This document shows positions 27,689-60,420 of a stretch of 64,000 nt of DNA, piece by piece. A program made the translations under genes and the position numbers. The notes beneath the pieces are model-generated. The model made no database searches. It saw nothing but the letters and a program-made list of their open reading frames with translations, and was not told the DNA's origin. The DNA is from Imbricaverruca yamaguchii (taxonomy: Eukaryota; Arthropoda; Thecostraca; Neoverrucidae), in NCBI GenBank assembly GCA_034440575.1, contig JAOTOL010001545.1, positions 1,291,501 through 1,355,500 on the forward strand, given 5' to 3'. The first letter of the stretch is position 1; each line of letters begins with the position of its first letter.

Positions 27689-27763
<75 letters not shown>

Positions 27764-27862: not shown

Positions 27863-27864
<2 letters not shown>

Positions 27865-29455: not shown

Positions 29456-29475
29456 GTAGAAGTCGATACGTCGCA

Positions 29476-32600: not shown

Positions 32601-32699
32601 ACGACCACGACAGACGACCACGACAGACGACCACGACAGACGACCACGACAGACGACCACGACAGACGACCACGACAGACGACCACGACAGACGACCAG
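29601..32699. repeat. 13-bp minisatellite, 3.1 kb, about 230 copies
   Basis: Tandem copies of the 13-mer CCACGACAGACGA. It is the longest array in the window. The left half (29.6-31.0 kb) is heterogeneous, with CGGCAGACGA, CGCAGACGA and GAGGCAGACGA variants and short insertions; the right half (31.0-32.7 kb) is almost homogeneous, suggesting more recent expansion there. No frame of either strand meets a stop in the consensus, so ORFs of 885-1218 codons appear on both strands (TDDHDRRPRQTTT on one, VVVCRGRLSWSS on the other). Symmetrical openness with no unique N- or C-terminal domain argues against a protein. Confidence 0.97.
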
Positions 32700-33429: not shown

Positions 33430-33544
33430 GTGCTTTGAGCAGGTTTAAATTTGCATTGAGCCGAAATATGTGTGTATTGAGCAGATATCAGTATGTGTTG
33501 AGGCGATATCAGTTTGTATTGCACAGGAATAGGTGTATATTGAG
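33430..33544. repeat. Left remnant of the 22-bp-monomer array
   Basis: About five diverged monomers around TATTGAGC(C/A)GATATCAGTATG. These are the same repeat family as 34959-35625 but separated from it by a transposon insertion; the last eight bases (33537-33544, ATATTGAG) are duplicated on the far side of the insertion. Confidence 0.85.
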
Positions 33545-34958
33545 CAGGGGCGGTCCGTGGCACCAAAGTGAGGTGAGGCAGAAAAAATGGCCGGATTTCG
33601 ACCAGTATTTTTCATGAGTACCCATTATTGTTTTATGTTAAGATGCGTATGAACAACTTAATTTGGCGCCGCAAGGTCCCAAACCTATCACCATCGTTCC
33701 GAAGTCAGTAAATTTCAACCCTCTCCCTCGTGTTCAAATGCTTTCAGAAATTGCCGGGAAGTTTTCATATATAAAATATCATTGAGGTTTTCATATATTT
33801 CCATTTCATAACCCGAAATGGCTAGCATACCCACACACACATATTATATGTATATATAATTATGTATATAATAATTATTATTGTTGTTATTTCTTATTAT
33901 TTATTATTTCAGTGCAAAATACATGAAGTTAATGGGAAGCCCCACATCGGTGGATTGCATGCTCCATGGTACCCCATGTTAAAAGTCTAGATTTTTAGTG
34001 GACATAGCCAACATTGAGGGGGCACTTGCCCTTGAAAAAAAATATACAAAAAACACGCCTGGTCTAGACGTATATAAATTAAAAATTGAAAACAATTCTG
34101 AAAACCAGCAGCAGGTTCTGTATCTGCACATGGGTGATAAGGGCGTGATATTCCAACCAGTACAAGTGCTTCCGCCGGTAGCCTAAATATAATGTTGGCG
34201 CCTTTTCCTGGCCGGATGGGTACTATCTTCCCATGGGGGCAAATGCCCCCAGTACCCGCACCCTTGTTTACGCCCCTGCACCGAGTGGGGAGGAATTATG
34301 TTGCAATAGTTACCTCTTACTTGCTCCTACCCCTCCTGTCCGGCCGTGATCTTAAGTTGGGCTGTCTCATCATACTGCTACTACCCGTGGCGCCGCGCGA
34401 TTCCTGCGGCGCTTGACGTGAATGCAGTCAGTGTGAGTCCAAGCGAAAAATCCTAGTGTTAAGGGAAATACGGCTCATATTCGCGGACACGATTCTTCAA
34501 GCTTTCCAATTAACCCTACTTTGTCCCATTTCGATGGTATTTAAGATCGGAAATATCGTGGGGAAAATACGGAAGTTTCGCTGGAGCGCCTACGGGACTG
34601 AGCAATTGTACAGCCCATGTGACGTCACCGATTGCGAAACGATATTGCAGGGCCCCTGCCTACCCTTCGCTTGTTATGAAACGAAACCTCACTATATGGC
34701 GAAATGTGCGAGAAGCAAGCTTCTGCCGACCGGTGATAGAGCTGTTTGGAAGCTAAGATGCAAATGTTGCAAATGTAAATGAGCTTCAATGTTTACCATA
34801 ATTATTAGTCACCAATGCATATTTATTTCCAGTTTTTCAACCTTGCTATTCTCCAGTGGATGAAAGCATCATTTTATGAAAATAGCATACAAAAATACTT
34901 ACTAGCTCTACTCAGGTGAGGCACTGCCTTAGTGCCTTACATGGGCGGACCGGCCCTG
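33545..34958. mobile_element. hAT-superfamily element, 1414 bp, with perfect 8-bp target-site duplication
   Basis: The left terminus is CAGGGGCGGTCCGTGGCACC followed by AAAGTGAGGTGAGGCAG. The right terminus in reverse complement is CAGGGCCGGTCCGCCCATGT followed further in by GGCAGTGCCTCACCT. The ends start with CAG and share CAGGG.CGGTCCG and a subterminal GAGGCA/GGCAG motif. The flanking 8-mers are identical (ATATTGAG at 33537-33544 and 34959-34966). An 8-bp duplication plus CAG...CTG ends is diagnostic of the hAT superfamily. The only sizeable internal ORF (34456-34782, 108 codons) shows no transposase domain (no RNase H-like DDE or ERxFS-type C-terminus), so this is a non-autonomous copy. 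It sits inside a minisatellite. Confidence 0.88.
34194..34280. mobile_element. Possible internal terminus of a second element
   Basis: Read on the minus strand from ~34279: CAGGGGCGTAAACAAGGGTG, GCGGGTACTGGGGGCATTTGC. This looks like another hAT-type terminus nested within the 1414-bp element. No partner end is clear on its left (a GAGGGGGCACTTGCCC motif at 34016 is a weak candidate), so nesting is not proven. Confidence 0.3.
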
Positions 34959-35625
34959 ATATTGAGCCAGCATCAGTATGTATTGAGCCGATCGCACTGT
35001 ATACTGAGCCGATGTCAGAATGTATTGAGCCGGTATCAGTGTATATGTTGAGCCGGTATCAGTGTGTATATTGGGCCGGCATCAGTATGTATTGAGCCGA
35101 TAGAATGTATTGACCGGTTATGCGATGTGCCGGATCAGTGTATTGAGGACGGTATTGACAGTGTATATTGTTGGCCGGTATCAGTGTGTATATTGAGCCG
35201 GCATCAGTATGTATTGAGCCGATAGCACTGTATACTGGGCCGACGTCAGAATGTATTGAACCGGTATCAGTGTATATGTTGAGCCGGTATCAGTGTGTAT
35301 ATTGAGCCGGCATCAGTATGTATTGAGCCGATAGCACTGTATACTGGGCCGATGTCAGAATGTATTGAACCGGTATCAGTGTATATGTTGAGCCGGTATC
35401 AGTGTGTATATTGAGCCGGCATCAGTATGTATTGAGCGGATAGCACTGTATACTGGGCCGTTGTCAGAATGTGTTGAGCCGGTATCATGTATATGTTGAG
35501 CCGGTATCAGTGTGTATATTGAGCCGGCATCAGTATGTATTGAGCCGATAGCACTGTATACTGAGCCGATAGCAGAATGCATTGAGTCGATATCAGTGTG
35601 TATATTGAGCCGGCATCAGTGAACT
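34959..35625. repeat. 22-bp-monomer array with 109-bp higher-order repeat
   Basis: Monomers of 21-23 bp with core TTGAGCCG(G/A)TATCAGTGT. Five distinguishable monomers (TATTGAGCCGATAGCACTGT, TACTGGGCCGATGTCAGAAT, TATTGAACCGGTATCAGTGT, TGTTGAGCCGGTATCAGTGT, TATTGAGCCGGCATCAGTAT) form a 109-bp higher-order unit repeated about five times. This is the same organisation as centromeric alphoid DNA in miniature: monomer divergence is old and higher-order amplification is younger. 35100-35165 is locally scrambled. Confidence 0.92.
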
Positions 35626-35966
35626 GGGAGCCTTGTGCCGGCGGTGGCAGCGGGAGGGGTGCGGTCCGTCTGAAGTGGCACCACCGCCGGGGTCGTGTTA
35701 ATAAATGTTTGGCCCGCTCTCACAGCCGGGGCTTCGGCTGGCCGCAACAGTCCTGCATCAGGCAGCGGGTCAGCGATGCCTGCGGGCGACGGTTCCTGAT
35801 CCTGCGGACAAAGAGTGCCATCGGAGAAGAACGGAGGAACGCCGATGTAGTCGCCCGCCAGGTGTGCTGCACTTTAGGAGCTCCGATGCAGGATGTCAAT
35901 TTTGAGGCGCTCACCACTGCAGGATCAGTTTTGCCACACAAACATGAATGGCCAGTGACATGGTGC
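35626..35966. other. Unique GC-rich sequence
   Basis: About 340 bp of unique GC-rich DNA between the minisatellite and a candidate transposon. ORFs on both strands cross it without a recognisable domain. Confidence 0.4.
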
Positions 35967-37001
35967 CAGTGGCGGCGTCAGGGTTTGGTAACGGGTTAGG
36001 CACATGGCTGTGCTCTGGGGCGGACTTCATGTGTCGATTCGTGAAAAAAAAGCTGAACGAAAACACTCTCTCCCATTTTCTAACGATTTCCAACTATTTA
36101 AGTACAGACCAGTGTCTTGGCCTAATATGACCTCCAGTGACCATATTATTGGTCAAGATGCAAACGCAGAGTATGATTCCATGAGCAGAGCTTTTGACGG
36201 TGTTTTGTGTTTCATCCGAGCTTTCCTAAGTGGGAGGTTCGTGGCCCCTGACCAGCCGAAGCTGAATCTGCCGGCCAGCCCGGACTCTCAAGAGAACGAG
36301 ACGTTAGTTTCAAATTCGTCCTAATTCCTCAGGACCTCTTAAAATTACATGGGCCCATGAATATGCCCTGTTGCGTGAAGCTGGCTATGGACTCACCATT
36401 GGGGAACATGTGTACATAATGTGTATGCCGCAAGCTAGGTGAAAGAAAGCGGTGATTGGGGAAGCCGAGTTTGAGACGCTAAATTCCAACACGCAGTATT
36501 TGCAAACTTTCTGGATCTGCGCGCTGGAAAGTGTTTTGCGGAGCGAGAAACTGTATTCTCTAGATTTGCTATTTTCCCGGGTGGGTGAGGACAAATTTCC
36601 CGTTCTAAAAAAAAAAACAGGGGAAATGTCCCTCATCCCGTCCATCAAGGAATACACCCATGGGTGAAATACTTGTCAGCTTCATCGATTGCCCTGTTCA
36701 GCCATCTGGGCTCAGCCCACGGGCGGCAAATCAGAGGAGGAGCAGTCCCCCACATGTGGGCCTTTTAACATCAGTCACAATGCACTTCATGTACTTTAGC
36801 GAGTTTAGGATTGTGTGATTCCTCTTCCCCCACATAGGCAAAACGGCACTCCGCTGCCCTTGGCTCCGTGGCGCACCAGGTGGGGGTGGGGAAAGAGGGA
36901 CAATGTGCCCAATGGCTGAAGACATGTCATTTAGCAACCCAGATAAAATGAGAATACTATTTCACTTATAAGACCACGGAACGCTCTCTCTCTCTCTCTC
37001 A

Positions 37002-37039
<38 letters not shown>

Positions 37040-37258
37040 TTTTTCAATCTTCGCTCTCTCTCTCGCTCTCTCTTTCTTTCTTTCTTTCTTTCTTTCTCTC
37101 TTTCTATCTTTCTCTCTCTCTCTTTCTCTCTCTCTCGCTCCCTCTCCCTCCCTTTTTCTCCTGCCTTCACCACGTTTAACAACATTAAAAGGAAAACATT
37201 TTTCGTTAAAACTAGGTTAGGCAGTGCTTTAAGTACCACAATGGGTGCGCCGCCACTG
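35967..37258. mobile_element. Candidate hAT-like element, 1292 bp
   Basis: The left edge CAGTGGCGGCGTCAGGGTTT and the right edge (reverse complement) CAGTGGCGGCGCACCCATTG share the first 11 bases exactly, and both have TTAGGCA-type sequence 35-50 bp inward (GGGTTAGGCAC; GCACTGCCTAACC). Flanking 8-mers CATGGTGC and CATAGAAC agree at 5 of 8 positions, a possible decayed duplication. The interior contains a CT microsatellite and no recognisable transposase. It resembles the 33545-34958 copy in size and terminus style. Confidence 0.45.
36983..37162. repeat. CT-rich microsatellite
   Basis: Imperfect CTCTCT/CTTTCTTT low-complexity tract of ~180 bp within the candidate element. Confidence 0.93.
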
Positions 37259-38230
37259 CATAGAACGCAGCATTCACGCTTCGAAAATAGCACGCTGTTG
37301 CTTGCCTACCACGGCGCCCCAAAAGTCGGTACAACCCTTTAGCGGGCTGTGGGCTGGCTCCGTTATGTCGTCTGTGGGGTCGTACCTGAGTCAGAGTTGT
37401 TTTTTTATGCGGCACAAAGCATCTCACCGCTTGCGCTCATTCAACGATCAATGGCAGGCTTTGTGCAGATAAACATGGCATCAGAGTTTCCACGTACAGA
37501 AAACCAGTTTATCGGTGAAAAGAACCTTTATCGCGTGGGTAGGGCTGGTACGAAAATCCTGCTTTATATGGACGTGGAAGTATTTTACTACACGCTATCT
37601 CTAAGATTGTCCTCGCAGATGATTGGCGAACAGGTACGATTTTTTTGTGTGTGCAGAATCCGTTCCAGCGACATGGGTGCTCCATGGGCAAATATATTGT
37701 GCGCTGTGGAGTATTTTAACATTTTATCGGCATGGAACTTCCACGGCATTGCATTCTTGAACAGAAGACTCTGCTGAACGAAACAAGCGCCAGCATTACT
37801 GCAGAGGAACACTGAAAACGTAGACATCTGTCGCATCTGCATTCCGGATGTATCAGACATCATCCGCAAAACATAGCGATAAGAACTTATTTAGCTTGCA
37901 TTCTTAAATAGTTCAGCTGCACCGCAGAGGCAATACTTGCTTATACTGTAGGCAGCATTTCGCAGCACAATTCTGGGCTGACCCCGTTGGCAACACGGCC
38001 GGTCACGTGCTGGTGACCTCCGCCGGGGTCAAAGGTGCGCCGCAGTGTGTCCCATGCGCTTGGTGAATGCCCGCGTGAATGAAGGCGTTCACTGCCCTTG
38101 GGCTCCTCTGACTCTCGATTCACAGACGGCAGACTCCGGAGGCAGAGAGCAATGGGCAAGCCAGTTGAAGAATCATCCCGTCAGATTGGGCACGTGAGAC
38201 TGAGACCGGTGCTGTGGGCCTGACCGTAGC
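37259..38230. other. Unique sequence without a supported gene
   Basis: About 970 bp, no arrays. A 142-codon plus-strand ORF (37349-37777) has no recognisable domain or splice context. Confidence 0.4.
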
Positions 38231-38846
38231 GCAGTCTGACCGTCAGCACGTGTCTGACCGTCAGCACGTGTCTGACCGTCAGCACGTGTCTGACCGTCAG
38301 CACGTGTCTGACCGTCCGTGTCGCCGTCTGACCGTCAGACGTGTCTGACCGTCTTTCCGTTGTCTGACCGTACGTGTCTGACCGTCAGCACGTGTCTGAC
38401 CGTCAGCACGTGTCTGACCGTCAGCACGTGTCTGACCGTCACACGTGTCTGATCGTCAACACGTGTCTGACCGTCAGCACGTGTCTGACCGTCAGCACGT
38501 GTCTGACCGTCAGCACGTGTCTGACCGTCAGCACGTGTCTGACCGTCAGCACGTGTCTGACCGTCAGCACGTGTCTGACCGTCAGCACGTGTCTGATCGT
38601 CAACACGTGTCTGAACGTCAGCACGTGTCTGACCGTCAACACGGTCTGACCGCAACACGGTCTGCCGAGGGACCGTGCACGTGTCTGACCGTCAGCACGT
38701 GTCTGACCGTCAGCACGTCTGACCGTCAGCACGTGTCTGACCGTCAACACGTGTCTGACCGTCAGCACGTGTCTGACCGTCAGCACGTGTCTGACCGTCA
38801 ACACGTGTCTGACCTTCAACACGTGTCTGACCGTCAGCATGTGTTT
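38231..38846. repeat. 18-bp minisatellite with a CACGTG E-box in every unit, about 33 copies
   Basis: Unit CACGTGTCTGACCGTCAG (18 bp). Variants include GTCAAC and TGATCG copies and a short unrelated insertion near 38645-38680. With an 18-bp period it is open in several frames (VSDRQH, LTVSTC, VLTVRH). Every unit carries the palindromic CACGTG hexamer, the high-affinity site of Myc/Max, USF and CLOCK-type bHLH factors in animals; whether it acts here is inference. Confidence 0.95.
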
Positions 38847-39076
38847 GATCGGGCGGTCGCAGACCACCATGGATTGCAAAGGGCGATGAGTGATGAGAGG
38901 TATCCTACGGATGTCGACGACAGAGGACAGATGACAGATGCTTTGAGCATGATAAGCATTTTGTTCAGTGACCTGGCTTCCAATTCAGCTGAAGGCTAAG
39001 GATGGTCCTTTTGACTTTTTAAATTTTGCCCTTTAATTTTTATTCACCATCCCTGAGCCTTCCAGAGGCGACATGG
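38847..39076. other. Short unique spacer
   Basis: Unique DNA between the 18-bp array and the TA tract. No supported gene. Confidence 0.5.

Positions 39077-39164
<88 letters not shown>
39077..39164. repeat. (TA)n microsatellite
   Basis: About 88 bp of TA dinucleotide, followed by ACACCTATATATATAGGT, itself a palindrome-like TA foldback. Confidence 0.97.
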
Positions 39165-39169
<5 letters not shown>

Positions 39170-39867
39170 CTATATATATAGGTAAAAAGCAAAATAATGA
39201 GTACCTACCCTCGAATAATATATAGCCTCTAATAAATTTTACCACTGAAGGGATGAGTTTATATATTTGGAGTAAACTAGATTGTGTAGATTATCCAACT
39301 TGGCAGCACATGTTATCTAACGTGGTGTGTAAAAGGATCTCTATCACCCCATCTAGAGAATCACTGGTGAAACCCGTGAACTGACATTTCATTCGTACCA
39401 CAAATTCCTGAAAGCTGCCCCGAAAAGGCACCGCCACAACTCCCTTCCTGCTCTGATGGATGCCTCTGTGGTGTTCTACGTGCGCTATTGCCTCTACGTG
39501 CATGACAACACCACTCATACGCAACTGACTCCCATACAGCGCGTAGTTAATTTAGCCATAGTTACGATCATTAACTGGAAATTGCAAATACCATCGAATC
39601 GGCACTGCATCCAAACAACTGGGACTGCTGACCTCCAGCCAGCTGGCCAGTTATGCTGGCCTGTGTCGGCTGCACTCCGTCATTCGTGGCGTGGACGACG
39701 CACTAGCTCCACTCGGTGACTTCCCACTTAGCCAAGCTGTTGCTCAGTGTCGTACTCGTCGGCCACATATACTTCATGTACAGCAGGCTGGAACCGGTGA
39801 TGGTGCTAGAACACCTCGTGTCCGTGCCGCCAAACACTTCTATAATACATGTCATTCTATAATACAT
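39165..39867. other. Unique sequence
   Basis: No array and no convincing coding ORF. Confidence 0.45.
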
Positions 39868-39905
39868 CCAATATACATGTCATTTAGAAATGACATGTAT
39901 ATTGG
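39868..39905. other. Perfect 18-bp-arm hairpin
   Basis: CCAATATACATGTCATTT, a 2-nt centre (AG), then AAATGACATGTATATTGG. The arms are perfect reverse complements over 18 bp. The neighbouring sequence also has ATACATGTCATTC at 39845, a partial direct copy. It could be a foldback mutation or a minimal transposon remnant; no flanking duplication is evident. Confidence 0.9.
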
Positions 39906-41138
39906 CATCCTGAGGCATTCCTAAGCTGGCTGTCCAAACTTTTGAATAGTTGGCGATAGGAAAGCCCAATAGCAATCGAGCCTGTAACAGTGCGTGTAGC
40001 CAAATAGGATAGGCTACTGCATAAGAAATAGGGGTCGACATTAGAAAAAAATGAATACGTATGGCATCGTATGGCTATCGTATGGCATGAGCTCCAGCGT
40101 AAACGCACCGATTTTAAAAAGCATGCGATTGCTCAGATAGTCTCCACTGTTGACTGCGTGGCAGTTTCATGGACACATTCGTATCAAGCTGTGTTACGTA
40201 TTAGGTGATATTGGAATTGTTATAGGCCTTTTGGAGCTGTGATTGACAATGGCTAGTGGTAGTCACTTGTAAAAGTGGATTGTGCTTGCTTCTGTACTCC
40301 AATACAATACAATACGTCCAGACAACTTCCCGGTGGCTCTCTCGAAGTCAGTCCCTCCTATCCATCAACCAAAAGACTCGAAATGCTCTTGGGTCAGCGG
40401 GTGTTTATCTGCATCTACCACTCCCACCCTCACCCCCTACTTAAGCACAATATCCTGGCGGTACCCCTGAATCGGCACCTTCATCATCCATAAAAGCTCC
40501 CTGATCCTTCCAGGAATCAGACACCTTTATATCAGCGCCTGATCCTTCCAGGGCCACATGGAACTTGAACACATTCACGCATACTTGAAACGGTCTCGAA
40601 TCGGCATCTGCATTGGACTGTCGAGACAGATTCAGCCAATGAATCATGCCAATGATTCATGCCAATGAATTGGTTCTTAATTGGCTGACATGATATCAGA
40701 TAGATTTAAAACGGACAAATCCAACAGGACGTACGAGGTTCGAGAGCGGACCGGCCGGGTGGGGGGGGGGGGCTGGGTGGCTCGAGCCGTCCGCCAGTCC
40801 GGCCGCAGCGGGCATCATTCATTGGCGGTGGCTGCGGTCGGCGCAGGGGATTAGTGTTGACAGGCGAGCCGCACGGTGGCCATGAGGCCAGCTGGCTGCC
40901 GCCGAGGCCGGGCATGAATGGACGGCGACGGGCTGTCGGCGGCGACAGGGCGTCAGCCGCGCCCCCGGCCGCGCCGCGCAACATCTCGCCGCATCTCGCG
41001 GCCCCTGCCCGCCTTATACGGCGGCCGCCGCCTCTCGGCAGCTGCAGCGCAGCTGGGGCGTGGGTGGGCCGCAGCGCATGGCCCATTGTGTACCGCGCGC
41101 GCTCGTCAGGTGGCCGCCGGGCATAATCGGTCAGCCGG
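39906..41138. other. Unique region, GC-rich at the right
   Basis: AT-rich to ~40.7 kb, GC-rich from 40.72 to 41.13 kb, with a G homopolymer at 40760-40772. 40633-40690 has AGCCAATGAATCATGCCAAT blocks and a distal ATTGGCT, giving modest foldback. The overlapping ORFs on both strands at 40.7-41.6 kb come from GC richness plus the adjacent pentamer array. Confidence 0.4.
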
Positions 41139-41415
41139 CGACGTGACACGACACGACACGACACGACACGATGCGATAAGACCCGACAAGACACGACATG
41201 ACGCGGTAAGAGACAACACGACACGACACGACACGACACGACACGACACGACACGACACGACGACGGACAGACAGACGACACGACACGCACGACGACACG
41301 ACACGACACGACACGACACGACACGACACGACACGACACGACACGACACGACACGACACGACACGACACGACACGACACGACACGACACGATGCGGTAAG
41401 AGACGACACGACGCG
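41139..41415. repeat. (ACACG)n pentanucleotide array
   Basis: Pentamer GACAC/ACACG repeated over ~275 bp, with short interruptions (ATGCGATAAGACCCGACAAG near 41170; GACGGACAGACAGACG near 41262). The GCGGTAAGAGAC motif occurs inside and at the right edge. It gives CRVVSCRVVS-type ORFs in one direction and RHDTTRHDTT in the other; not protein. Confidence 0.95.
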
Positions 41416-41445
41416 ACAGGGTCGTGTCGTGTCGTCTCTTACCGC
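41393..41445. other. 25-bp-arm hairpin terminating the pentamer array
   Basis: The left arm (41393-41417) begins GCGGTAAGAGACGACACGAC. The right arm (41421-41445) is its reverse complement with one mismatch and ends GTCTCTTACCGC. The loop is three bases. The array thus reverses direction for ~20 bp and stops, as expected of a foldback replication error. Confidence 0.92.
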
Positions 41446-41683
41446 AGCAGCCGCCTGCCTGCGGCTGAGACGCGTATCGCGGAAGACAGGCTAAGAATCG
41501 TGAAGAGTGTAGCCCGAAACTGTGCCGCATCGCACGACTGTACGACGGTTCAGACCCCTCGGGCGTTACACCTTGGCGGGGACAGCTCTGCGTCGCCTCA
41601 TAGAAAACTCGGTTCCGTTCCAAGTCCGCCCTGGGAAGATCTAAAATGAGCATGGAAGAGAGCTTACATCGTGCATTCATCGC

Positions 41684-41983
41684 ATGACGCAACGATTCTG
41701 CAAGCTGTTTTATAAGCGCATTGCTCTTAATAGTTGGTTGTTGGTCTACGAACGCGTAGGCTCGTGGGCTCTATTATCGGATGGGGGGAATAAATTCGTA
41801 AAACCGTTATCCGGAGGGATGACTGTTTTGGCGAAATCACCAAGCCGACATTGCTGGCTGATTTTGCGGTCCGTAAGCATGGCAAGTGAAAGGACCTTCC
41901 CAGCTCTAAATGTCCGCATGAAACGTGTCATATTGACCGTCAAATCGCATCATCGGCCTTCAGGGCCAACCACTGGTACATGA
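41684..41983 (+). pseudogene. Weak hAT transposase C-terminus-like ORF
   Basis: A 99-codon ORF contains SMASERTFPALNVRMKRV, which resembles the S.A.SER.FS.L...K (ERxFS) segment of the hAT dimerisation domain. The flanking residues fit poorly and no other transposase part is found, so the match may be chance. Confidence 0.2.
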
Positions 41984-43595
41984 ACTATCGATATTCTGAG
42001 AATGCACTATCTCCCGCTGACTCGACACGGCTGATCGGCAGCTGAATCGACCGGAGGTGCAAAAAACCTGCCACTTGGCCAGGGGTGTAGGGGACAGATA
42101 TCGGACGATTCACCGCAGCTGTGGTCAGAGATTACGGTATTGCATTGGCATCCGCGGTGGATCCACGAATTATCACCGGAGGGTTGGGGTTGGAGGTACA
42201 ATCCCTCGAATGGGCGCCTTTGGCGAAACAAAATCGTTCAGCGGGGTCCGGGTTGCGAGTGCACTCGAACACAATAAAGTGGTGCTTTTTTTCTTCCAAG
42301 GGGAATCTTTTCTTCTTGCAGCGCTTTTGGCTGAATGTCTGTTGGGCGAAAGGGAGCAGGTATAGTCGAGCCTTCCTGAAGTAGTCGAGCCTGTCCTGGT
42401 TGGAGGGGCGCCACTTTTCCACGGGGGGGGGGGAGGCATCCGCTCATGGAAAGGGACACAAATGCACCTTCCGAGTATTGGAAAAAAGTGGTTTATCCTG
42501 TATATTTCTTATCCGGTACATTATCCTCTCTGGGACGGTATTCACTACTTTTTGCTGGATATTCCCTGCTTTAATTAACTTCTTTCAAAGTGACTGAACT
42601 TAATTGTTTGATACATATTCCCAAAGCTGACTGTGAAGTACATCAATGAGCTTTTTATGTCAGACACGGAGACAAGAATGCTCATCTCCGGCCTGGAACG
42701 TTCATACATTTTCCTCTCTAAATTAAGAATAAAAAACATAAATCAAACTGTTCCACTCCATTATCGATAATTTGGAGCAACAATTACTAAATGCTTGAAC
42801 AGTATTGCGTGGCAAGAAATTTCATGAGGTGTGCTTCCCTCAACCTTTGTATATGCTGATCAGTTTTTGTATCGTCTAACAGTTCCATTCATAGTACACC
42901 AAAGATGCAAATCGGTGTTAAACCATGCAATCATGGCTTAGCAACGCTGTTGTCTGTGTCGTTTTAGTGCATTCTTTCACATGGATTTTGCCATTGGAAA
43001 ACGTACTAACCTTGACAGTACTCTGAGTTTGTCAGGCTTGAATCATTACCTTGACAATCGCAGTTTGTTCTGCTCCCATGCCGATTACTGGCCATCGCTA
43101 CTGTTCACTAGGCCTGTGATTTATGCAGCTTATATAGATGTGGTGAGTAGCAAGCATGTTACATTGTTCTGCAGCTACATACACTGATGAATGGTGAGAC
43201 ATAACTAACTGGATGCCAGATTGATGATCATATAGAGGTTACAGCGGCAGTTTTGCCATTTTAGCATCTATTGGGATGGCAAGCCACACTTTCACATTGA
43301 TCTAAATGGTTTGCTGTTGGCCATCAATATGTGACAGCCCTGGTAGTGTTTGACATTGTGTGGGCGACACCCTGGATACTTTTTCACCTATGGAATCGAC
43401 ACTCCTCTCTGTGCGGGCACGGAAGTACAGTTACGAACCCTGTGTTCAAACATAGATTTCAGCACAAAGAGCAATGGCAATTGATTAAATATAATCATAG
43501 CAAGTCTATTCCTGAGTAAAAACATTTAGTAAAAGAAAGCGTTTGCGTCTTGAAACAAACAACGGCACAGGAAGTTATAGTTTCAAAAGCGTGAG
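41984..43595. other. Unique sequence
   Basis: AT-rich in the centre. A G-run lies at 42424-42434. Small ORFs have no recognisable domain. No further metalloprotease exon could be identified here, although it lies downstream of the 44.8-kb minus-strand exon. Confidence 0.4.
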
Positions 43596-44112: not shown

Positions 44113-44411
44113 CGGGCCTGTCTAGGCCAGGCCGTATCGGGTCGCTGAAATTAACTTTTATCGCATATACACCGGAGTAGACTCACTGAGGCTTGGCCCT
44201 CGCTCCAACAATGCATCACAAAATAGCAGAATAAAGGTGCTTAGGCCCCGAATGTTGTTTGGATTCCGTCGGGGTGGCAACAGAATGACCGCCAACAAAT
44301 CGGCGGCGGAAGTCAAACAGTTCTCATCATGGTCCACCTGCATCCCACTTCCATATTCAAGATTGCATCATCGTATCTATTTATCAGATCATGTCAGTCG
44401 CGGCGCAATCT
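44113..44411. other. Unique intronic sequence
   Basis: Spacer between the 17-bp and 40-bp arrays, presumably within the same minus-strand intron. No other feature. Confidence 0.4.
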
Positions 44412-44801
44412 AGCCAGTACTCACCATGAACTTGCGCAAGCTGATGACAACTGTCAGAACTCACCATGCCTTTACAGAGACCATGCCTTTACACAGACTG
44501 ATCCGACCAGTCAGTACTCACCATCCCTTTACACAGACTGATCCGAGTGGTCAGTACTCGCCATCCCTTTACACAGACTGATCCGACCAGTCAGTACTCG
44601 CCATGCCTTCCCACAGACTGATCCGACCAGTCAGTACTCGCCATGCCTTTACACAGACTGATCCGACCAGTCAGTACTCACCATGCCTTTACACAGACTG
44701 ATCCGACCAGTCAGTACTCACCATGCCTTTACACAGACTGATCCGACCAGTCAGTACTGGCCATGCCTTTACACAGACTGATCCGACCAGTCAGTACTCA
44801 C
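44412..44801 (-). repeat. 40-bp minisatellite made of exon end plus 5' splice site
   Basis: Nine copies start at 44415, 44455, 44512, 44552, 44592, 44632, 44672, 44712 and 44752 on the plus strand and run directly into the real exon junction (44792). On the minus strand each unit is CAGTCTGTGTAAAGGCATG (the last 19 nt of the exon, two substitutions) followed by GTGAGTACTGACTGGTCGGA plus T (the first 21 nt of the intron). Five copies keep the GT donor (44415, 44455, 44512, 44672, 44712), three have GC followed by GAGT (44552, 44592, 44632) and one (44752) is GCCAGT. The array was therefore generated by tandem amplification of the authentic exon-intron boundary. Confidence 0.92.
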
Positions 44802-45109
44802 CATGCCTTTGCACAGGCTGACGGCCACTGCAGAGTGTTGGTCTCGCTCCACCGAGCCGCGGTAGAAACAGCGAGTCGTGGCGCTGTCCAGCTCGTGCAC
44901 CTCGCTGAAGTTTCTGTGCACGCTTTCGACGTGCAGCCGGGGCGCCGTGAAGCCGGTGTCGAGCCGCAGTACCAGCGTCAGGTCACGACCGAACGCCCGC
45001 AGGCGATAGCGCACCGGCTGGCCGGTGTCGAGGTCAGCGGGAGGTGCTGACGGCCGGGGCGGCCACGGGAGCCGGCGTGGCCAGGTGAGCATCGTCAGGG
45101 CCGAGTCGT
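44802..45109 (-). CDS. Internal exon of an ADAMTS/ADAM-family metalloprotease (propeptide)
   Basis: This 308-nt exon reads from 45109 to 44802. The acceptor is a pyrimidine-rich CTGACCTGACC tract ending GTGGCCGCAG; the donor is GGCATG|GTGAGTACT. It enters in phase 1 and leaves in phase 0 with no stop. The translation contains YRLRAFGRDLTLVLRLDTGF, then a hydrophobic-basic LHVESVHRNF, then CFYRGSVERDQHSAV and VAVSLCKGM. This order (FxLxAFG.D..L.L....F, then CFY.G.V..D..SA..VSLC.G) is the signature of the reprolysin M12B propeptide found in secreted ADAMTS and membrane ADAM proteases; the AFG.D and CFY.G forms favour ADAMTS. The propeptide keeps the zinc protease latent in the secretory pathway. 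The exon holds no catalytic HExxH motif; catalytic, disintegrin and thrombospondin exons should lie at lower coordinates but none is recognised in the window. Codons are strongly GC-ending. Confidence 0.85.
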
Positions 45110-45415
45110 CTGCGGCCACACACAGGTCAGGTCAGGTCAGGTCAGGTCAGATCCGACTGACAGGCCGCGGCAGCCGCCGTGGCCAGGTGAGCGTCGTCAG
45201 AGCCGAGTCGTCTACAGTTACACAAAGGCCAGGTCAGGTCAGGTCAGGTCGGATCAGGTCAGGTCAGGTCAGATCAGATCAGGTCAGGTCAGGTCAGATC
45301 CGACTGACAGGCCGCGGCAGCCGCCGTGGCCAGGTGAGCGTCGTCAGAGCCGAGTCGTCTCCAGCTACACAAGTAAGGTCAGGTTAGGCCGGGCTGGTCG
45401 GCCGCGGCAGCCGGT
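45110..45415 (-). repeat. Upstream-intron repeat: copies of the 3' splice site and exon start joined to AGGTC pentamers
   Basis: On the minus strand, 45211-45163 and 45358-45310 each read ACGACTCGGCTCTGACGACG, CTCACCTGGCCACGGCGGCT, GCCGCGGCC. This matches the first ~50 nt of the real exon (45109 downwards) with about five substitutions, and each copy is preceded by an acceptor-like (T/C)A(C/G)AG. A third partial copy lies at 45400-45415. The copies are separated by (AGGTC)n pentamer runs (45124-45150, 45230-45300) that on the minus strand supply pyrimidine-rich (GACCT)n next to each acceptor. AGGTCA is also the nuclear-receptor half-site. Confidence 0.85.
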
Positions 45416-47227
45416 CGTCACATTGGTTCGTGTCGTCACACCCAGCACCGGCACAACTGCCACCATAGTTATCAACCCCACCACGAATTGCCGCCCGGCG
45501 ATTCGAGACGCGCCGCAAAACTGGCTAGTCGGGAAATACTCCACGTACGCGTCTGACTCCAGCCTCTGACCCCGGGAGCAGCTGACCCCGGACGGTCAGC
45601 GGCTCCCGCGACTGGACCTCCCGATGTCAGCACCAGGAAAGGTTGCACGTGGCGGCAATATCGGCGTGGGTGGTACGTCAGCAGTCTGGAGCGACCCTTG
45701 CTGCTCCGGCAATCCATAAACTGCATGGGAATGGCGGGTCAGTTGCCAGTTCTTCAATGGTCCAGAGCAGCGATGAATTGCTGCTCTGGCAATACATCCG
45801 CCGCATGGAGTGGTGAGCAATTTGTCAGTGAACGGGAACAAGAAGAAATAAATGAAAGAAAACCAAATCAGAAGCGATGTTGGTCTTCTTTTGACGCGTG
45901 TTAAACAATCGTTCCATGTTTTGTTCGAGAACAGCTTGCCAGCTTCGAACAGCTTTGAAAAGCAACAGGGAAACATCCAGAAGGATGCAAGAGGCGATCA
46001 TTCCTCTCACCATTTCCTCCTCTATCCAGGCGATCATGGAGTCAGCACTTCCTCCCTCCCTCCCCCACTCCCCTCTTCCGCCGTGAACGAAATTTGGTAA
46101 GTACTAATTTTTCCACCCTCTTCCCACTCAGCCTGTCTTAGAAACAGCCTCTTCCCAATCCTCAACCACCAAGACGGTTTTTGACATCGGGGACTGCTTC
46201 CTCCCTTTCCTGTCCCATCCAGACCGAATTAGCTGCTGGGATCACTTAGACGGGGACTGATAGGCTCCACGTTCCCCTCCTCGTCCACAAAATCGTTTCA
46301 GAAACTGCTTCCTCTCATTTCCCTCCTATCTAGATAGTATCGGAGCCCCCTCCCCCTTCACCTCGCAGACGCTTGGGGATGGGGCGCCGTCGGCAAGGCC
46401 TCCAGACGACACAGATTCAGCGAACGTTTCTGGCGGCTAGCCAGTTCGCCAGCCGCCACTATTTACACCTGTCGAGGCAAATCCACCGCCAGACAGCTCG
46501 GCGACCGACCCTGCCCAAGCCGGGAGGGCCGGGACTGCTCCGTCTGGGAAGGTCGCAACTCACCCGCTCGGAAGGTCGGGACTAACCCGCCGGGAATGTC
46601 GCAGGTGTCGTTCTCGTCGGGTTGCCCCCGCCCAGATGCTCGGGAAGGTGGATTCCACCCGATTCGGAAAGTCTGCCTCGTCCTCACTGGAGTTTCAGCG
46701 TGTCTCCCATGGAATGCCGGGCTTGATCCGTTCGCTAGGTCACGAATACGCCACTGATAAAGCCAAGAAATCTCCGTTCTTAGTCGGAGCGTTTTGTCCG
46801 AAGGTCCAGAGTGCTGCACCGCGCTCCGATCAGTGATCACCGCCCGGTAGCACCGTTCCCGCGCCCTCCTGTCTCACCTGTCACAGCTGTCACAAAGGAC
46901 AACCCGTCACAAGAGGATGGCTAACGTAGGAAAAGAACGTAACGCGCCCGGCGGACAGACAGGCCGCCGGCTGCGGCGGCGGCGGCGACCAGATACATAG
47001 CCGGAGGCAAGGTCGTCTGGATGGACCGCCTGGCACCAGACGCCGGCTGGGTTATAACGGCACCCGAGGCGCCCGCGGCGATCATCACGGCTCCTCTCTG
47101 GGTTTGTCTGTGGTGTGAAGGTCACTGGACGTCAGGACGCCGTCGGAAGGTCTCTGTGCGTCGACCCCGGCCGGAAGGTACAACTTTTCCTCTGGCAAAG
47201 GTCGATCGTACGGTGGTGTGATGACTG
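45416..47227. other. Unique GC-rich region
   Basis: If the metalloprotease gene extends upstream, its 5' exons would lie here or beyond, but no signal-peptide exon could be recognised. 45697-45830 contains a diverged ~95-bp duplication starting GCTGCTC(C/T)GGCAAT. 46500-46680 has GGGAAGGT(C/G)G-type degenerate repeats. ORFs on both strands lack domains. Confidence 0.4.
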
Positions 47228-47540
47228 ATAACCCTGTCAGGCATTGACCAGACTGTCACCTCTGTCAAAGCTCAGCCGGGCTGTCACCTCTGACAAAGCT
47301 CAGCCGGATTCCCGTCTCGGCTGAAAAGTCAGCCGAGTCCCAGCCTGTCAAAGGTTCGCCTGGTCCCCATCCCTGTCAAAGGTTGGCCAGGTCCTCACCT
47401 GTTCAAGGCTGGCGGGGCCTCAGCCTCAGCCAAAGGTTGGTTGGGTCCTCACCTCTGACAAAGGTCCGTCGAGTCCCCATATCCACACAGCCGAATCCCC
47501 ACATATCAATGGTCACCTGAATCCCCACCTTCACTAGAGG
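47228..47540. repeat. Degenerate ~35-40-bp repeat
   Basis: Recurring CCTCACCTCTGACAAAGCTC, AGCCGGG and GTCAAAGGTTGGCCAGGTCC blocks at ~35-40-bp spacing, strongly diverged. An old minisatellite. Confidence 0.6.
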
Positions 47541-48236
47541 TCGGCTGCGCCTAAGTCTCCCTCGCGGCCTACACCACGTGGTTCATACCGCGACCGGCCC
47601 ACCGTTCAGTCACCTCGTCCGACGGACAAGAGATGACATCATTGTGTCTGCTCGTGATGGTGGGGCCTGCGTTTAGTGGCTCGCAACCCGCGCAAACTTG
47701 CACCAGCTGAGTTACGAATAAGCACCACACATGCGCGTGGCCATGCGCACACGAGCATCTCTGCATGCGAGTATCAACATACGCATACCCGCCTGTCCGC
47801 CTGTACGGGGACTCAACGAGCACACGACGTGGGCGTGAGACGAGAGTGCACCCCGCGCGAGGTATGCAAAGTCACTGCAATAAACGAGCACCCCACTGCT
47901 GCACACTGGTAGCGATGCACGCGACATATAGAGATATAGCGCGCTCGGCATTTCGCCATGCACCACATATGCCAGGTTACGATTGATGGCTCCGTGTTTG
48001 GGTGTTACAGCGCCCGACGTCGCTGGATACACTCGAGATATGCCCGGCACGTCACAGTCGCCCGTCACGTACACACCTGGCAAGCCTTGCTGGGAGCGTC
48101 GCCCGGCGTTGGCGGCGTCTGATGCAAGGCCAGGCGAATTGCGAAGTGGTCGGTGCGCCCAGGGTAAACAGCTAGGCTACAATTTGTTGCCACCGTTAGT
48201 CGGGCGGGCAAGTGAACACCGTTTGCGACAAGGTCA
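47541..48236. other. Unique sequence upstream of a retrotransposon fragment
   Basis: GC-rich unique DNA. Short ORFs on both strands lack recognised domains. Confidence 0.4.
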
Positions 48237-48895
48237 TCGGGTAGAATGCTCGGGGCAATAAATAGGAATGTATCATACAGAAGTGAGGAAGTCATCAGGA
48301 AGCTTTACTGTGCATATGTCAGGCCACATTTGGAATACTGCATCCAAGCTTGGTCTTCTAGCTATGAAAAAGATTGTTGGCTTTTAGAGAGAGTACAAAA
48401 GAGGGCTACACAAATGGTTAATGGCATAAGCAACCTGGCATATGAGGAAAGATTGAAGAAATTGAATATGTTTTCACTTAGATATAGAAGGCTGAGAGGA
48501 GATCTCCTCGAGGTCTTTAAATTTGTCCATGGTCTGGAGAGGGGATATCTTGGGGAAATGTTTGAATTGAACAGAAATGATGCAATTAGAGGTCATAAAT
48601 TCAAAATTAAAGTTAACCACAGCAGAACAAGGTTAAGGCAGACTTTCTTCACCAACAGGGTAGTAGAACACTGTAACCAGCTGCCTGGAAACATTGTCAG
48701 TAGCAGCACATTTAACATCTTTAAAAACAGCATAGACAATCATTATAAGAAAGAGGGCTTGCTTTTCAGTATTACAGGGAGGGCTGATTGACATATTTGG
48801 TGGGCAACTGGTTCAGTGTACAGAGTGCGACCAATAAGGGCCCTTGTGGCTCATAGTTGCACTAATCTTTTATGTCTTTGTGTCTTTTATGTGTC
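48237..48895 (+). mobile_element. CR1-like non-LTR retrotransposon, 5'-truncated 3' end
   Basis: An uninterrupted 181-codon ORF (48246-48791) encodes the C-terminal part of a LINE reverse transcriptase. It shows MLGAINRN, LYCAYVRPHLEYCIQAW (the thumb/connection motif of CR1/L2/Rex-type elements), LLERVQKRATQMV, LRYRRLRGDLLEVFK and the terminal TFFTNRVVEHCNQLP..IV.S.TFN.FKN.ID. The finger and palm with the YxDD catalytic motif and the endonuclease domain are absent, as expected of 5' truncation. About 105 bp of 3' UTR follow and end in TCTTTTATGT direct repeats (48866-48895), typical of CR1-group 3' ends. The frame is intact, so the copy is young. It is not a functional gene on its own. Confidence 0.85.
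48246..48791 (+). CDS. Reverse transcriptase C-terminal fragment (CR1-like)
   Basis: The open frame of the element above. The ATG at 48246 is the first in frame, but homology (GRMLGAINRN) begins a few codons upstream, so the start is an artefact of truncation. The stop is TGA at 48789. In the complete protein this region follows the palm and supports template binding during target-primed reverse transcription. No active site is present. Confidence 0.8.
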   Translation: MLGAINRNVSYRSEEVIRKLYCAYVRPHLEYCIQAWSSSYEKDCWLLERVQKRATQMVNGISNLAYEERLKKLNMFSLRYRRLRGDLLEVFKFVHGLERGYLGEMFELNRNDAIRGHKFKIKVNHSRTRLRQTFFTNRVVEHCNQLPGNIVSSSTFNIFKNSIDNHYKKEGLLFSITGRAD

Positions 48896-48939
48896 GGTGC
48901 AGTTTTGCTGACATGCCGCCGAATGTGTGCACGTGCCGG

Positions 48940-49292
48940 GCCAAGCCAGCGTGAGTACAGCTCAAAGCCAGTGCGAATACAGCCCAACGGAGCCCAGGCC
49001 CAGCCAGAATACGTGCTTTTGCAAGAGCTGAGCTCAGCCAGCGTGCATACAGCCCAATGGGACCCAGGCCAGCCAGAATACGCCTGCGTCAGATTTAGCA
49101 ATACATGGACATGGCCCGACGGGGTGTGGGCCCAGACTGACACGTCCGCCAAGCAGGACCCAGGCCCAGCCCGAATATGCCTGCTTCAGACTCAGCTATG
49201 TGAACACAGGGCCCAGACTGACACATCCGCCAAGCAGGACCCAGGCCCAGCCCGAATATGTCTGCTCCAGACTCAGCTATACGAACACAAAC
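48940..49292. repeat. 81-bp tandem repeat plus diverged shorter copies
   Basis: Two near-identical 81-bp units (49131-49292) with landmarks GCCCAGACTGACACGTCCGC, CAAGCAGGACCCAGGCCCAG and CCGAATATGCCTGCTTCAGA. They are preceded by three to four shorter diverged copies around CCCAGGCCAGCCAGAATACG. The array lies immediately 3' of the CR1 fragment. Confidence 0.85.
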
Positions 49293-50599
49293 TACAGCAT
49301 TCTAGAAGAAGCTATCAGCTTTGCATTGGCGTGTGGTTTTCGTACTTTATATGAAATGGTTGCATGTCTGGTATGACAAGTTGATGTCGTCCACACAGCT
49401 TGTAACATACCAGGTAGCTAGGTTGCTTCTGTGTAAATACCTGTTTTGTTAGAGCTAATGACAGTCGCTTCGATATGAATAAGGTGGACATTTAAAAAAA
49501 AAACTTTTGAAGCTGATGTTGCTATTTTGTCTGATTATATTCCTTAGTAGTAGTTCTATTTCTTGTGGTGGCAGCTACTGTTCGACATCTGAACATTAGA
49601 TTTACCCTCCGCTGATGTCTTCCTTTCTAGATCCGATCAAGTATGTGTATTTACTCTCCACCGCATCACTGACTTAATCGTAACTACACATGAGTAACAT
49701 ATGCAACGAGGAATGCGAACCCGGCAACGAAACCCACTCAGCCTGGCCATGCTTACGTTCTGTCCTACGTACGTTTATCTCTACACTATTTGCTCACTCT
49801 CTTCCATCCCGTAGTCTCGAAATAGTCAGAGCTGGCTGCGGAGACGTCCAGATACCAAGTGAACGCGGCACAAATATACCACTGGAGATAAACGATCTAC
49901 AAAACGTGTTCGAATACACAGCCTGGACGTTCAAAACGTGTTCAGTGAGGCTACTAAGATAGTGAACAGCGCCGGTATATACGCACACATCAAATACGAA
50001 TAAATAATAAACTAAATAAATGGATACAATAAATGTGAAATATAATTCATAATAAATAATAAGTAATATATAAATAAACACATAAATGCCATGAAACCGA
50101 CCACTGTGGTGCGAAATCTAGTTCAAGTTGCTCAGCATAGCCAAAGCTGTCCTAATGTTACAATAAATATTCCCGATAGGTTCGGTGAGAACCAGTCACA
50201 TACAAGCGTGTGTCGTATTATTGTGGCGTCACAAGTTCAGTCAGCAACACGTCAAAGCTTAGACGCACAACGTCAAGTTATTGCAAGCGCAAAACAAACC
50301 GGGCCGAACAATGGCGCCGGCCGCCAGCCGCCCCCATCAGAATTCTGACGGCCGTGCGGGCCAGCGCCGGCGCCGGTGCAGCGCGCTCCACGGCCAGATT
50401 GGCCCGAAAACAAGGCCGGGATCAGCGCGCATGTGGCCCTATCAGCGCGCTGACCACATTCCGCCGCGGGCACTGGGAGCCCGCTCGGCGCGCCGGGCGC
50501 CCGTCTGCTCCTCTCCGGTGCCAAGTGGTGTTCCTCTCCTGAGGCTGCCATGGGGCGGCAGGAGACCGATGGATTATAGTGAGGCACATGTGGTGTCGC
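49293..50599. other. Unique region, AT-rich then GC-rich
   Basis: AT-rich to ~50.1 kb, GC-rich to 50.6 kb. ORFs at 50.27-50.64 kb on both strands have no recognisable domain. CTCTCCTGAG near 50540 and ACACG|GTGAGATG near 50630 could frame a short exon from which the adjacent array grew, by analogy with the 44.8-kb exon, but I recognise no protein in it. Confidence 0.35.
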
Positions 50600-53380
50600 G
50601 GCCAGCTGCGGTCAGGTGGGACACGGTGAGATGTTAGAGTCAGAGAGGCCAGCTGCGGTCAGGTGGGACACGGTGTTAGAGTCAGAGACGCCAGCTGCGG
50701 TCAGGTGGGACACGGTGACATGACTTAGAGTCAGAGAGGCCAGCTGTGGTCAGGTGGGACACGGTGTTAGAGTCAGAGAGGCCAGCTGTGGTCAGGTGGG
50801 ACACGGTGAGGTGACTTAGAGTCAGGAGAGGCCAGCTGTGGTCAGGTGGGACACGGTGTTAGAGTCAGAGAGGCCAGCTGTGGTCAGGTGGGACACGGTG
50901 ATTAGAGTCAGAGAGGCCAGCTGCGGTCAGGTGGGACACGGTGTTTAGAGTCAGAGAGGCCAGCTGCGGTCAGGTGGGACACGGTGACATGACTTAGAGT
51001 CAGAGAGGCCAGCTGTGGTCAGGTGGGACACGGTGTTAGAGTCAGAGAGGCCAGCTGTGGTCAGGTGGGACACGGTGAATGACTTAGAGTCAGAGAGGCC
51101 AGCTGCGGTCAGGTGGGACACGGTGACATGACTTAGAGTCAGAGAGGCCAGCTTGGTCAGGGTCACGGTGTGATAGAGTCAGAAGGCAAGAGGCCAGCTG
51201 TGGTCAGGTGGGACACGGTGAATGACTTAGAGTCAGAGAGGCCAGCTGTGGTCAGGTGGGACACGGTGACGTGACTTAGAGTCAGAGAGGCCAGCTGTGG
51301 TCAGGTGGGACACGGTGTTAGAGTCAGAGAGGCCAGCTGTGGTCAGGTGGGACACGGTGTTAGAGGCACTCGGTAGGTGGGACAGGTGTTAGAGTCAGAG
51401 AGGCCAGCTGCGGTCAGGTGGGACACGGTGACATGACTTAGAGTCAGAGAGGCCAGCTGCGGTCAGGTGGGACACGGTGTTAGAGTCAGAGAGGCCAGCT
51501 GTGGTCAGGTGGGACACGGTGATTAGAGTCAGAGAGGCCAGCTGCGGTCAGGTGGGACACGGTGACATGACTTAGAGTCAGGGAGGCCAGCTGTGGTCAG
51601 GTGGGACACGGTGTTAGAGTCAGAGAGGCCAGCTGCGGTCAGGTGGGACACGGTGACATGACTTAGAGTCAGAGAGGCCAGCTGTGGTCAGGTGGGACAC
51701 GGCGACATGACTTAGAGTCAGAGAGGCCAGCTGCGGTCAGGTGGGACACGGTATGACTTAGAGTCAGAGAGGCCAGCTGTGGTCAGGTGGGACACGGTGA
51801 ATGACTTAGAGTCAGAGAGGCCAGCTGTGGTCAGGTGGGACACGGCGAGATGACTTAGAGTCAGAGAGGCCAGCTGCGGTCAGGTGGGACACGGTGTGAC
51901 TTAGAGTCAGAGAGGCCAGCTGTGGTCAGGTGGGACACGGTGAATCTTAGAGTCAGAGAGGCCAGCTGTGGTCAGGTGGGACACGGTGTTAGAGTCAGAG
52001 AGGCCAGCTGTGGTCAGGTGGGACACGGTGTTAGAGTCAGAGAGGCCAGCTGCGGTCAGGTGGGACACGGTGAATACTTAGAGTCAGAGAGGCCAGCTGC
52101 GGTCAGGTGGGACACGGTGACATGACTTAGAGTCAGAGAGGCCAGCTGCGGTCAGGTGGGACACGGTGAATATTAGAGTCAGAGAGGCCAGCTGTGGTCA
52201 GGTGGGACACGGTGATTAGAGTCAGAGAGGCCAGCTGCGGTCAGGTGGGACACGGTGACATGACTTAGAGTCAGGAGGCCAGCTGTGGTCAGGTGGGACA
52301 CGGTGTTAGAGTCAGAGAGGCCAGCTGCGGTCAGGTGGGACACGGTGAGATGACTTAGAGTCAGAGAGGCCAGCTGTGGTCAGGTGGGACACGGTGAGAT
52401 GACTTAGAGTCAGAGAGGCCAGCTGCGGTCAGGTGGGACACGGTGTTAGAGTCAGAGAGGCCAGCTGTGGTCAGGTGGGACACGGTGACATGACTTAGAG
52501 TCAGAGAGGCCAGCTGTGGTCAGGTGGGACGTGGTGACTTAGAGTCAGAGAGGCCAGCTGCGGTCAGGTGGGACACGGTGTTAGAGTCAGAGAGGCCAGC
52601 TGTGGTCAGGTGGGACACGGTGACATGACTTAGAGTCAGAGAGGCCAGCTGTGGTCAGGTGGGACACGGTGACATGACTTAGAGTCAGAGAGGCCAGCTG
52701 CGGTCAGGTGGGACACGGTGACATGACTTAGAGTCAGAGAGGCCAGCTGCGGTCAGGTGGGACACGGTGACATGACTTAGAGTCAGAGAGGCCAGCTGCG
52801 GTCAGGTGGGACACGGTGACATGACTTAGAGTCAGAGAGGCCAGCTGCGGTCAGGTGGGACACGGTGAATGATTAGAGTCAGAGAGGCCAGCTGTGGTCA
52901 GGTGGGACACGGTGAATTATTAGAGTCAGAGAGGCCAGCTGTGGTCAGGTGGGACACGGTGACATGACTTAGAGTCAGAGAGGCCAGCTGTGGTCAGGTG
53001 GGACACGGTGAATTACTTAGAGTCAGAGAGGCCAGCTGCGGTCAGGTGGGACACGGTGTTAGAGTCGGAGAGGCCATCTGCGGTCAGGTGGGACATGGTG
53101 TTACAGTCAGAGACGCCAGCTGCGGTCAGGTGGGACATGGTGTTACAGTCAGAGAGGACATCTGCGGTCAGGTGGGACACGGTGAGATGACTTAGAGTCA
53201 GAGAGGCCAGCTGTGGTCAGGTGGGACACGGTGAGATGACTTAGAGTCAGAGAGGCCAGCTGCGGTCAGGTGGGACACGGTGAGATGACTTAGAGTCAGA
53301 GAGGCCAGCTGCGGTCAGGTGGGACACGGTGAGATGACTTAGAGTCAGATAGGTCAACGGCAGTCAGGTGGGACACGGCG
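50600..53380. repeat. Minisatellite with 42-51-bp units, roughly 55-60 copies
   Basis: The unit core is TTAGAGTCAGAGAGGCCAGC, TG(C/T)GGTCAGGTGGGACACGG, TG, with an optional ACATGAC/AGATGAC/AATGAC spacer giving long and short forms that alternate. The C/T polymorphism and spacer length form mixed patterns, indicating unequal exchange. Each unit contains CAGCTG and CAGGTG E-box hexamers. A few scrambled units occur near 51150-51190 and 51360-51390. In the last copies (53050-53170) the unit changes to GGACATCTGCGG and ATGGTGTTACAG variants. Confidence 0.95.
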
Positions 53381-55498: not shown

Positions 55499-55930
55499 AG
55501 ATGGCCAGATTGTCAAACGGTCAGGGATACGGCTGGGGGTACGGCTAGGGGTACGGCCAGGGGTACGGCCAGGGGTACGGCCAGGGATATGGTCATGGAT
55601 ACGGTCAGGTGAGACGATTAAGTGAGACGATCAGGTGAGACGGTCAGCTGAGACGGTCAAGTGAGACGGTCAAGTGAGACGGTCAGCTGAGACGGTCAAG
55701 TGAGACGGTCAAGTGAGACGGCCAGATTAGACGGTCAGATCAGACGGTCAGATCAGACGGTCAGATCAGACGGTCAGTTCAGACAGGATAGGGATGAGCC
55801 GGCCAGGTGAGACGGTCAGATCAGACGGTCAGTTCAGACAGTATAGGGATGAGACGGTCAGATCAGACGGTCAGATCAGACGGTCAGATCAGACGGTCAG
55901 TTCAGACAGGATAGGGATGAGCCGGCTCGT
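55499..55930. repeat. Short GACGGTCAG-type repeats (12- and ~14-bp periods)
   Basis: First a 12-bp GGGTACGGCCAG repeat (55530-55605), then ~14-bp GAGACGGTCAAGT/CAGACGGTCAGAT repeats to 55930, including two long direct copies of the AGATCAGACGGTCAGTTCAG, ACAG.ATAGGGATGAG block (55800-55925). Confidence 0.88.
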
Positions 55931-57444: not shown

Positions 57445-57515
57445 GGGAGCGGTCGGTGTTCGCGCGCTATCTGGATGGATCTGGCGGGAGCGGTCGGTGT
57501 TCGCGCGCTACCTGA
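57445..57515. repeat. 41-bp tandem duplication
   Basis: GGGAGCGGTCGGTGTTCGCG followed by CGCTA occurs at 57445 and again at 57486, 41 bp apart; two copies. Confidence 0.85.

Positions 57516-60420
<2,905 letters not shown>

Follow-up and report, generated by a model that had tools for sequence, protein, structure and literature searches.

Tandem arrays containing the donor and the probable acceptor junction of a propeptide exon in a barnacle genome

In the genome of the barnacle Imbricaverruca yamaguchii, a protease-family propeptide exon is flanked on both sides by tandem repeats that contain its own splice junctions, the donor on one side and what is probably the acceptor on the other. The exon lies on the minus strand of a 64,000-nucleotide stretch of contig JAOTOL010001545.1, referred to here as the window. 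Junction-spanning minisatellites at 5' and 3' boundaries have been named "mirages" in amphioxus, as described in passages of the globin paper (PMC3087553). Measured against those passages, the window feature is a further mirage, of a known kind, with a seeding bias that can be tested. We consider it likely that the double mirage consists of arrays seeded at the exon edges, as a by-product of a tolerated mutational bias, and that it is not an evolved splicing device. The analysis used the genomic sequence of one assembly, in which splice sites were predicted with a scoring matrix.

The product of the exon matches Pfam PF01562 with an E-value of 1.1e-10 and 42.4 bits, against a curated cut-off of 23.7. 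The match covers profile positions 35 to 93 of 93, so that the exon encodes the later part of the propeptide domain, as found in ADAMTS/reprolysin genes. Unlike these genes, the window has yielded no catalytic domain in the ~39.5 of 64 kb scanned with Pfam on both strands (~8100–17600, 19500–29500, 33000–43000, 45100–50600 and 55900–60400, plus the propeptide exon itself), and none of the 14 genomic matches to PF01421 lies on the window's contig, C1312; divergent or short exons could escape this search. The five weak rows returned by the scans outside the exon are all under their curated cut-offs. The term "protease exon" used in the preliminary description therefore stands for a propeptide exon. 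A phmmer search of PDB gave no match, and Rfam and tRNA searches returned nothing.

The exon is predicted to begin in phase 1 and to end in phase 0, with 44802 as the last base on the minus strand (Table 1). The own-assembly search (767 Mb, 1430 contigs) lists three such propeptide exons, on C1422, C1312 (the window) and C1094, and all three have a predicted phase 0 donor at the corresponding codon. The single homologue in the protein collection, P0002 (52% identity over 94% of the query), reads SLCKGMVST across the window donor position. The donor is considered well placed because of the agreement in codon and phase among the paralogs and the continuity of P0002. For the acceptor there are two phase 1 candidates, 45109 with the best score of 3.7 and 45046 with 1.1. 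An automated caller that penalises distance from the Pfam match chose 45046; no copies of that junction were found. The best candidate in the C1094 paralog is a phase 1 acceptor 338 nt before the donor (score 4.7), and the best one outside the Pfam match in the C1422 paralog is also phase 1, 380 nt before the donor (score 3.0, with a phase 2 neighbour at 2.8). The acceptor at 45109 is the probable, not certain, start of the exon. If the true start is at 45046, the upstream array is intronic only.

Table 1. Positions in the window of the propeptide exon, its junctions and the flanking repeats; distances refer to the probable exon start.
Feature	Position	Strand	Details and basis
Reprolysin/ADAMTS-type propeptide exon	44802..45109	-	308 nt; Pfam PF01562, open frame, splice candidates, paralogs
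Donor GT (ATG/GTGAGT)	44800..44801	-	Both paralogous exons have a phase 0 donor at the matching codon
Donor-side minisatellite: true junction and nine 40-bp copies, the last two degenerate	44404..44821	-	TRF and unit-by-unit identities
Acceptor-side unit, copy C (within the exon, its first 49 nt)	45061..45109	-	Unit-by-unit alignment
Copy B, AG in front	45163..45211	-	102 nt upstream of exon start; 44/49; acceptor score 4.9
Copy A, AG in front	45310..45358	-	249 nt upstream of exon start; 44/49; acceptor score 0.5
TRF extent of the 102-bp acceptor-side repeat	45061..45255	-	102 bp x 1.9, score 306
Pentamer tract, (CTGAC)n, separating copy B from copy A	45226..45297	-	TRF period 5, 14.4 copies
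Shorter CTGAC tract	45123..45150	-	TRF period 5, 5.6 copies

On the donor side, the preliminary description had read the 40-bp repeat as 19 nt of exon end joined to 21 nt of intron start, and this is borne out by nine ungapped copies with 36, 38, 38, 37, 36, 33, 37, 29 and 28 identities out of 40. TRF calls the array at 44480–44821 (40 bp x 8.6, 93%). A shuffle check had been proposed as well, and its outcome depends on the sequence that is compared. The 60-nt exon end alone scores 30 against the intron, and this test is indecisive because 30 is also the best score of 1000 dinucleotide shuffles (mean 17.8). On the other hand, when 30 nt of the whole junction are compared, the nine copies reach 23 to 29 identities, while 23 of 30 was reached in none of 275 shuffled controls derived from myosin donors. 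The whole-junction test is decisive for copying on the donor side. Seven of the nine copies have TGTAAA where the exon reads TGCAAA, and the copied donor keeps GT in five and has GC in four.

The upstream repeat had been described as the acceptor together with the first ~50 nt of the exon. Two intronic copies, A and B, fit this description, with an alignment score of 73 where none of 1000 shuffles exceeded 31; the acceptor they copy is itself the probable one. Copies A and B do not differ from each other over the 49 nt, and both depart from the exon at the same five positions.

The pentamer of the acceptor-side tracts occurs more widely in the window. CTGAC or GTCAG is present in 15 of 49 merged array consensus units, where shuffled units give an expectation of 3.3 and where the highest count for any pentamer in 200 shuffles was 14. 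The pentamer resembles a branch-site consensus. The window, with a mean G+C of ~0.53, also holds very long TRF arrays at 29601–32698 (13 bp x 244), 50600–53378 (49 bp x 60) and 17617–19481 (30 bp x 63), and its AT skew rises to 0.99 at 30001–32000.

The paralogous exons bear on the age of the intron. In the C1422 paralog (L006, 788–1469), a 33-bp unit containing the exon end and the donor is present in 20.6 copies by TRF. Its intronic part is visibly unlike that of the window array, and the C1422 array is therefore probably of separate origin. The C1094 paralog has no junction array, just a 10-bp x 1.9 repeat close by. An origin of the intron itself from the tandem duplication of a piece of exon that carries splice signals, with the arrays as relics of its birth, has been proposed for the amphioxus globin mirages in passages of PMC3087553. 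Under such an origin the intron is expected to be absent from homologues without the duplication, and C1094 has the donor with no junction array. Since donor position and phase are common to the two paralogs, one of them without a junction array, the window intron is older than the array; intron birth by duplication was rejected on this ground, and we regard it as highly improbable. Additional exons were sought by comparing the paralogous loci, which proved too mixed with repeats for use.

Junctions elsewhere in the genome were surveyed in a sample chosen independently of repeats, the myosin head (PF00063), with 72 matches, of which 59 on 17 contigs had sequence and 13 did not. One of the 59 had no donor candidate and two had no acceptor candidate; score limits of 2 for donors and 0 for acceptors then removed 3 of 58 and 1 of 57, respectively, and with these four kept the edge counts are the same. 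The sample is one gene family with predicted splice sites, and its paralogous exons are not fully independent. With a copy defined as at least 23 of 30 nt identical within 1 kb, junction copies are present at 7 of 55 donors and 3 of 56 acceptors (shuffles 0/275 and 0/280), and they range from one extra copy to ~20 units. The clear donor cases are C1274:869371 (67 bp), C1082:448443 (79 bp), C1307:909175 (39 bp, 20.5 copies) and C1314:1271509 (32 bp), and the clear acceptor case is C1413:2360307 (34 bp). C1376:1866589 has one extra donor copy, perhaps an early stage of array growth. Junction arrays thus seem not to be rare in this genome. The reprolysin set of 14 loci, some intronless or poorly scored, gives weak support for common junction copying: one donor and no acceptor pass the test, the donor being the weakly scored one of L044 with a single copy, and at L052 the predicted acceptor marks the end of a repeat of two copies. 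The trypsin family has 154 matches in the assembly; the edge bias described below was measured in myosins only.

Two further observations concern the myosin genes. A homologous donor (profile end 82–83) is found in five of them (C1274:869371, C1135:327346, C1272:107094, C1138:558986 and C1307:923049), where an array lies across the junction, 26 nt in or 58 nt in, and is absent in two; recurrent seeding at one homologous edge is possible. At C1272:95309, 98174 and 99511 there are three tandem copies of one exon (profile 376–439) with similar predicted boundaries, which resemble the mutually exclusive alternative Mhc exons of arthropods.

The positions of array edges carry the case for seeding at junctions. 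The junction-proximal edges were counted in a near zone, from -30 to +60 nt of the junction, and a far zone, 60–600 nt into the intron. Myosin donors have 15 edges near and 13 far, a density ratio of 6.9 (p 1.2e-6), and acceptors 12 near and 23 far, a ratio of 3.1 (p 0.0024). Raising the TRF score limit to as much as 250 does not lower the ratios; with stricter splice scores the acceptor ratio is 2.8 (p 0.019) and one acceptor is crossed. Arrays crossing the junction number 4 at donors against 0.70 expected at the intron-interior rate (p 0.006) and 3 at acceptors against 1.27 (p 0.14), with uncertain boundaries in two of the three acceptor cases (C875, C1376). The donor-crossing array at C1272:103160 (12-bp unit) passed no junction-copy test, and the clear donor case C1082:448443, with its edge at -31, falls just outside the crossing cut. 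Short introns pressing arrays against the exons were rejected as a cause, the array-free intron length being 281–2058 nt in the 12 introns measured.

Arrays could instead arise uniformly in non-coding DNA, with some of them beginning at exons by chance and the junctions playing no part. The window is rich in arrays, and the myosin junctions lie in repeats (7/55 and 3/56) no more often than the intron interior 150–500 nt from the donor, where 103 of 527 non-independent positions do; the low count in the reprolysin set points the same way. What is in excess at junctions is array edges and not repeat coverage, and it is this several-fold concentration of edges, together with the surplus of donor-crossing arrays in a place from which purifying selection should remove them, that makes chance abutment rather unlikely. 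The suggestion that exon–intron junctions seed tandem duplication has accordingly gained support, within one gene family and at predicted sites, and the results suggest that junctions look like preferred sites of tandem duplication. The crowding of array edges near junctions looks new; the passages of the mirage papers mention none. At junctions without an edge array, G+C is 0.57–0.60 in the first 60 intronic nt (0.57–0.58 at acceptors) and mostly 0.47–0.55 beyond. This step may be a cause of the seeding or a relic of older arrays.

A selected role as splicing modulators had also been suggested, in which the copied sites would serve as decoys or enhancers, adjusting exon definition or giving rise to unproductive, NMD-sensitive isoforms. 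Many of the copies do look usable: five of the nine decoy donors score equal to the true donor, and decoy acceptor B (4.9) scores above the presumed true acceptor. The spacings of copies A and B from the exon start are divisible by three, the CTGAC run has TGA in all three frames, and reading on from either copy meets a stop after 20 full codons. Read-through past the donor runs into a stop at 30 nt, before it gets to any decoy donor, the first of which lies at 40 nt; this stop is due to TGTAAA in the copy in place of the exon's TGCAAA. The use of any decoy would therefore be unproductive, since an in-frame premature stop would be added, which is in line with a modulator making NMD-sensitive isoforms. 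In each of the five arrays tested, the donor core also varies less from copy to copy than the remainder of the unit does; however, the ranks are weak (5/32, 3/25, 5/31, 21/71 and 16/59) and are biased by anchoring the copies on the core. The four GC donors in the window speak against this role as well. Moreover, most edge arrays begin inside the intron and not in the exon (10 of 16 at donors, 9 of 12 at acceptors), although two such donor arrays, on C388 and C1135, still hold one junction copy. Because of this intron-side start, a positional mutational bias is favoured over selection for copied splice sites, and the proposal of selected modulators has become an improbable one.

The presence of arrays at both edges of one exon had been called hard to explain by chance, and this is not supported. 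Both sites were scored in 52 myosin exons. Arrays sit at the donor edge in 13 of these and at the acceptor edge in 12; 4 exons have them at both, where independence would give 3.0, and an excess of co-occurrence was rejected (Fisher p 0.47). None of the sampled exons has arrays crossing both junctions, and for this reason the window case is a strong one. TRF arrays of period at least 10 occupy 30% of the window. The two ends of a 308-bp segment placed in it fall into separate arrays 3.6% of the time, so that the coincidence around the exon is uncommon and not extraordinary. Arrays at both edges are about as frequent as expected from two common processes acting independently.

Under the preferred reading of edge seeding by a tolerated mutational bias, a stretch straddling each junction of the propeptide exon would have been tandemly duplicated by slippage or microhomology repair. 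The units would then have been multiplied and homogenised by unequal exchange or conversion, like other minisatellites, while the exon's own copy was presumably held fixed by selection on the protein, as suggested by its sequence, which stands apart from the homogenised copies. The intronic copies include working-looking splice sites, and transcripts presumably use the exon-proximal pair, since decoy use would add a premature stop. Exon edges would be preferred seeding sites, arrays starting within ~60 nt of the junction more than deeper in the myosins; this zone is also richer in G+C, and either the G+C or the exon edge itself may be the cause.

A broader and more tentative possibility is that, throughout the genome of this lineage, junctions act as mutational hotspots at which minisatellites are seeded, owing to a property of exon edges, for example the G+C step, chromatin or structures formed in co-transcriptional splicing. 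The junctions would then keep supplying genes with ready-made arrays of splice sites, and this supply could drive the shifting of junctions, the birth of exons and regulated unproductive splicing, with an origin independent of the amphioxus mirages. In the parts of the literature searched, all mirages described so far come from lancelet genes. Should another, distant genome make them routinely and start its minisatellites at exon edges, long-read RNA and allelic variation could be used across many natural arrays to test the origins of new splice sites and of shifted introns, as well as the choice of the spliceosome among near-identical sites.

The original mirage report is reportedly that of Canestro and colleagues in 2002. 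It had been supposed that no example with both boundaries amplified was described, which passages of two papers contradict where the kinds of boundary are concerned. In the amphioxus globins, tandem duplications lie on the acceptor side in BflGb6 and on the donor side in BflGb9, after an earlier report of mirages in amphioxus Adh3 (PMC3087553), and the lancelet PGBD5 gene has 60- and 108-bp repeats at its 5' and 3' splice sites, with troponin C also mentioned (PMC3902484). Junction-spanning arrays outside lancelets were not found in the titles and abstract openings of the literature searched, which mostly excludes subscription papers, and a search on tandem repeats and introns of barnacle genomes yielded nothing.

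The window feature resembles the amphioxus mirages in several respects. Its tandem units span the exon–intron boundary (19 + 21 nt at the donor, AG + 49 nt at the probable acceptor), and both kinds of boundary are affected. Many units, not all, keep the splice dinucleotide (GT in 5/9, AG in 2/2). The passages on the amphioxus mirages report regular splicing by RT-PCR, length alleles and a boundary copy exempt from homogenisation (PMC3087553). Concerted evolution that leaves out the boundary copy is likewise indicated here by the identity of A and B and the shared TGTAAA, as read from the copies themselves. Unlike the amphioxus cases, a single exon has arrays at both its boundaries, a pentamer tract has expanded within the acceptor-side unit, and an edge bias, which the passages of the mirage papers do not contain, has been measured in a gene sample. 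Finally, intron gain by tandem genomic duplication, reported in potato RdRp (PMC4974935) and Drosophila (PMC2891723), likewise duplicates, in tandem, sequence that carries splice signals; there a new intron arises, whereas here an existing intron grows.
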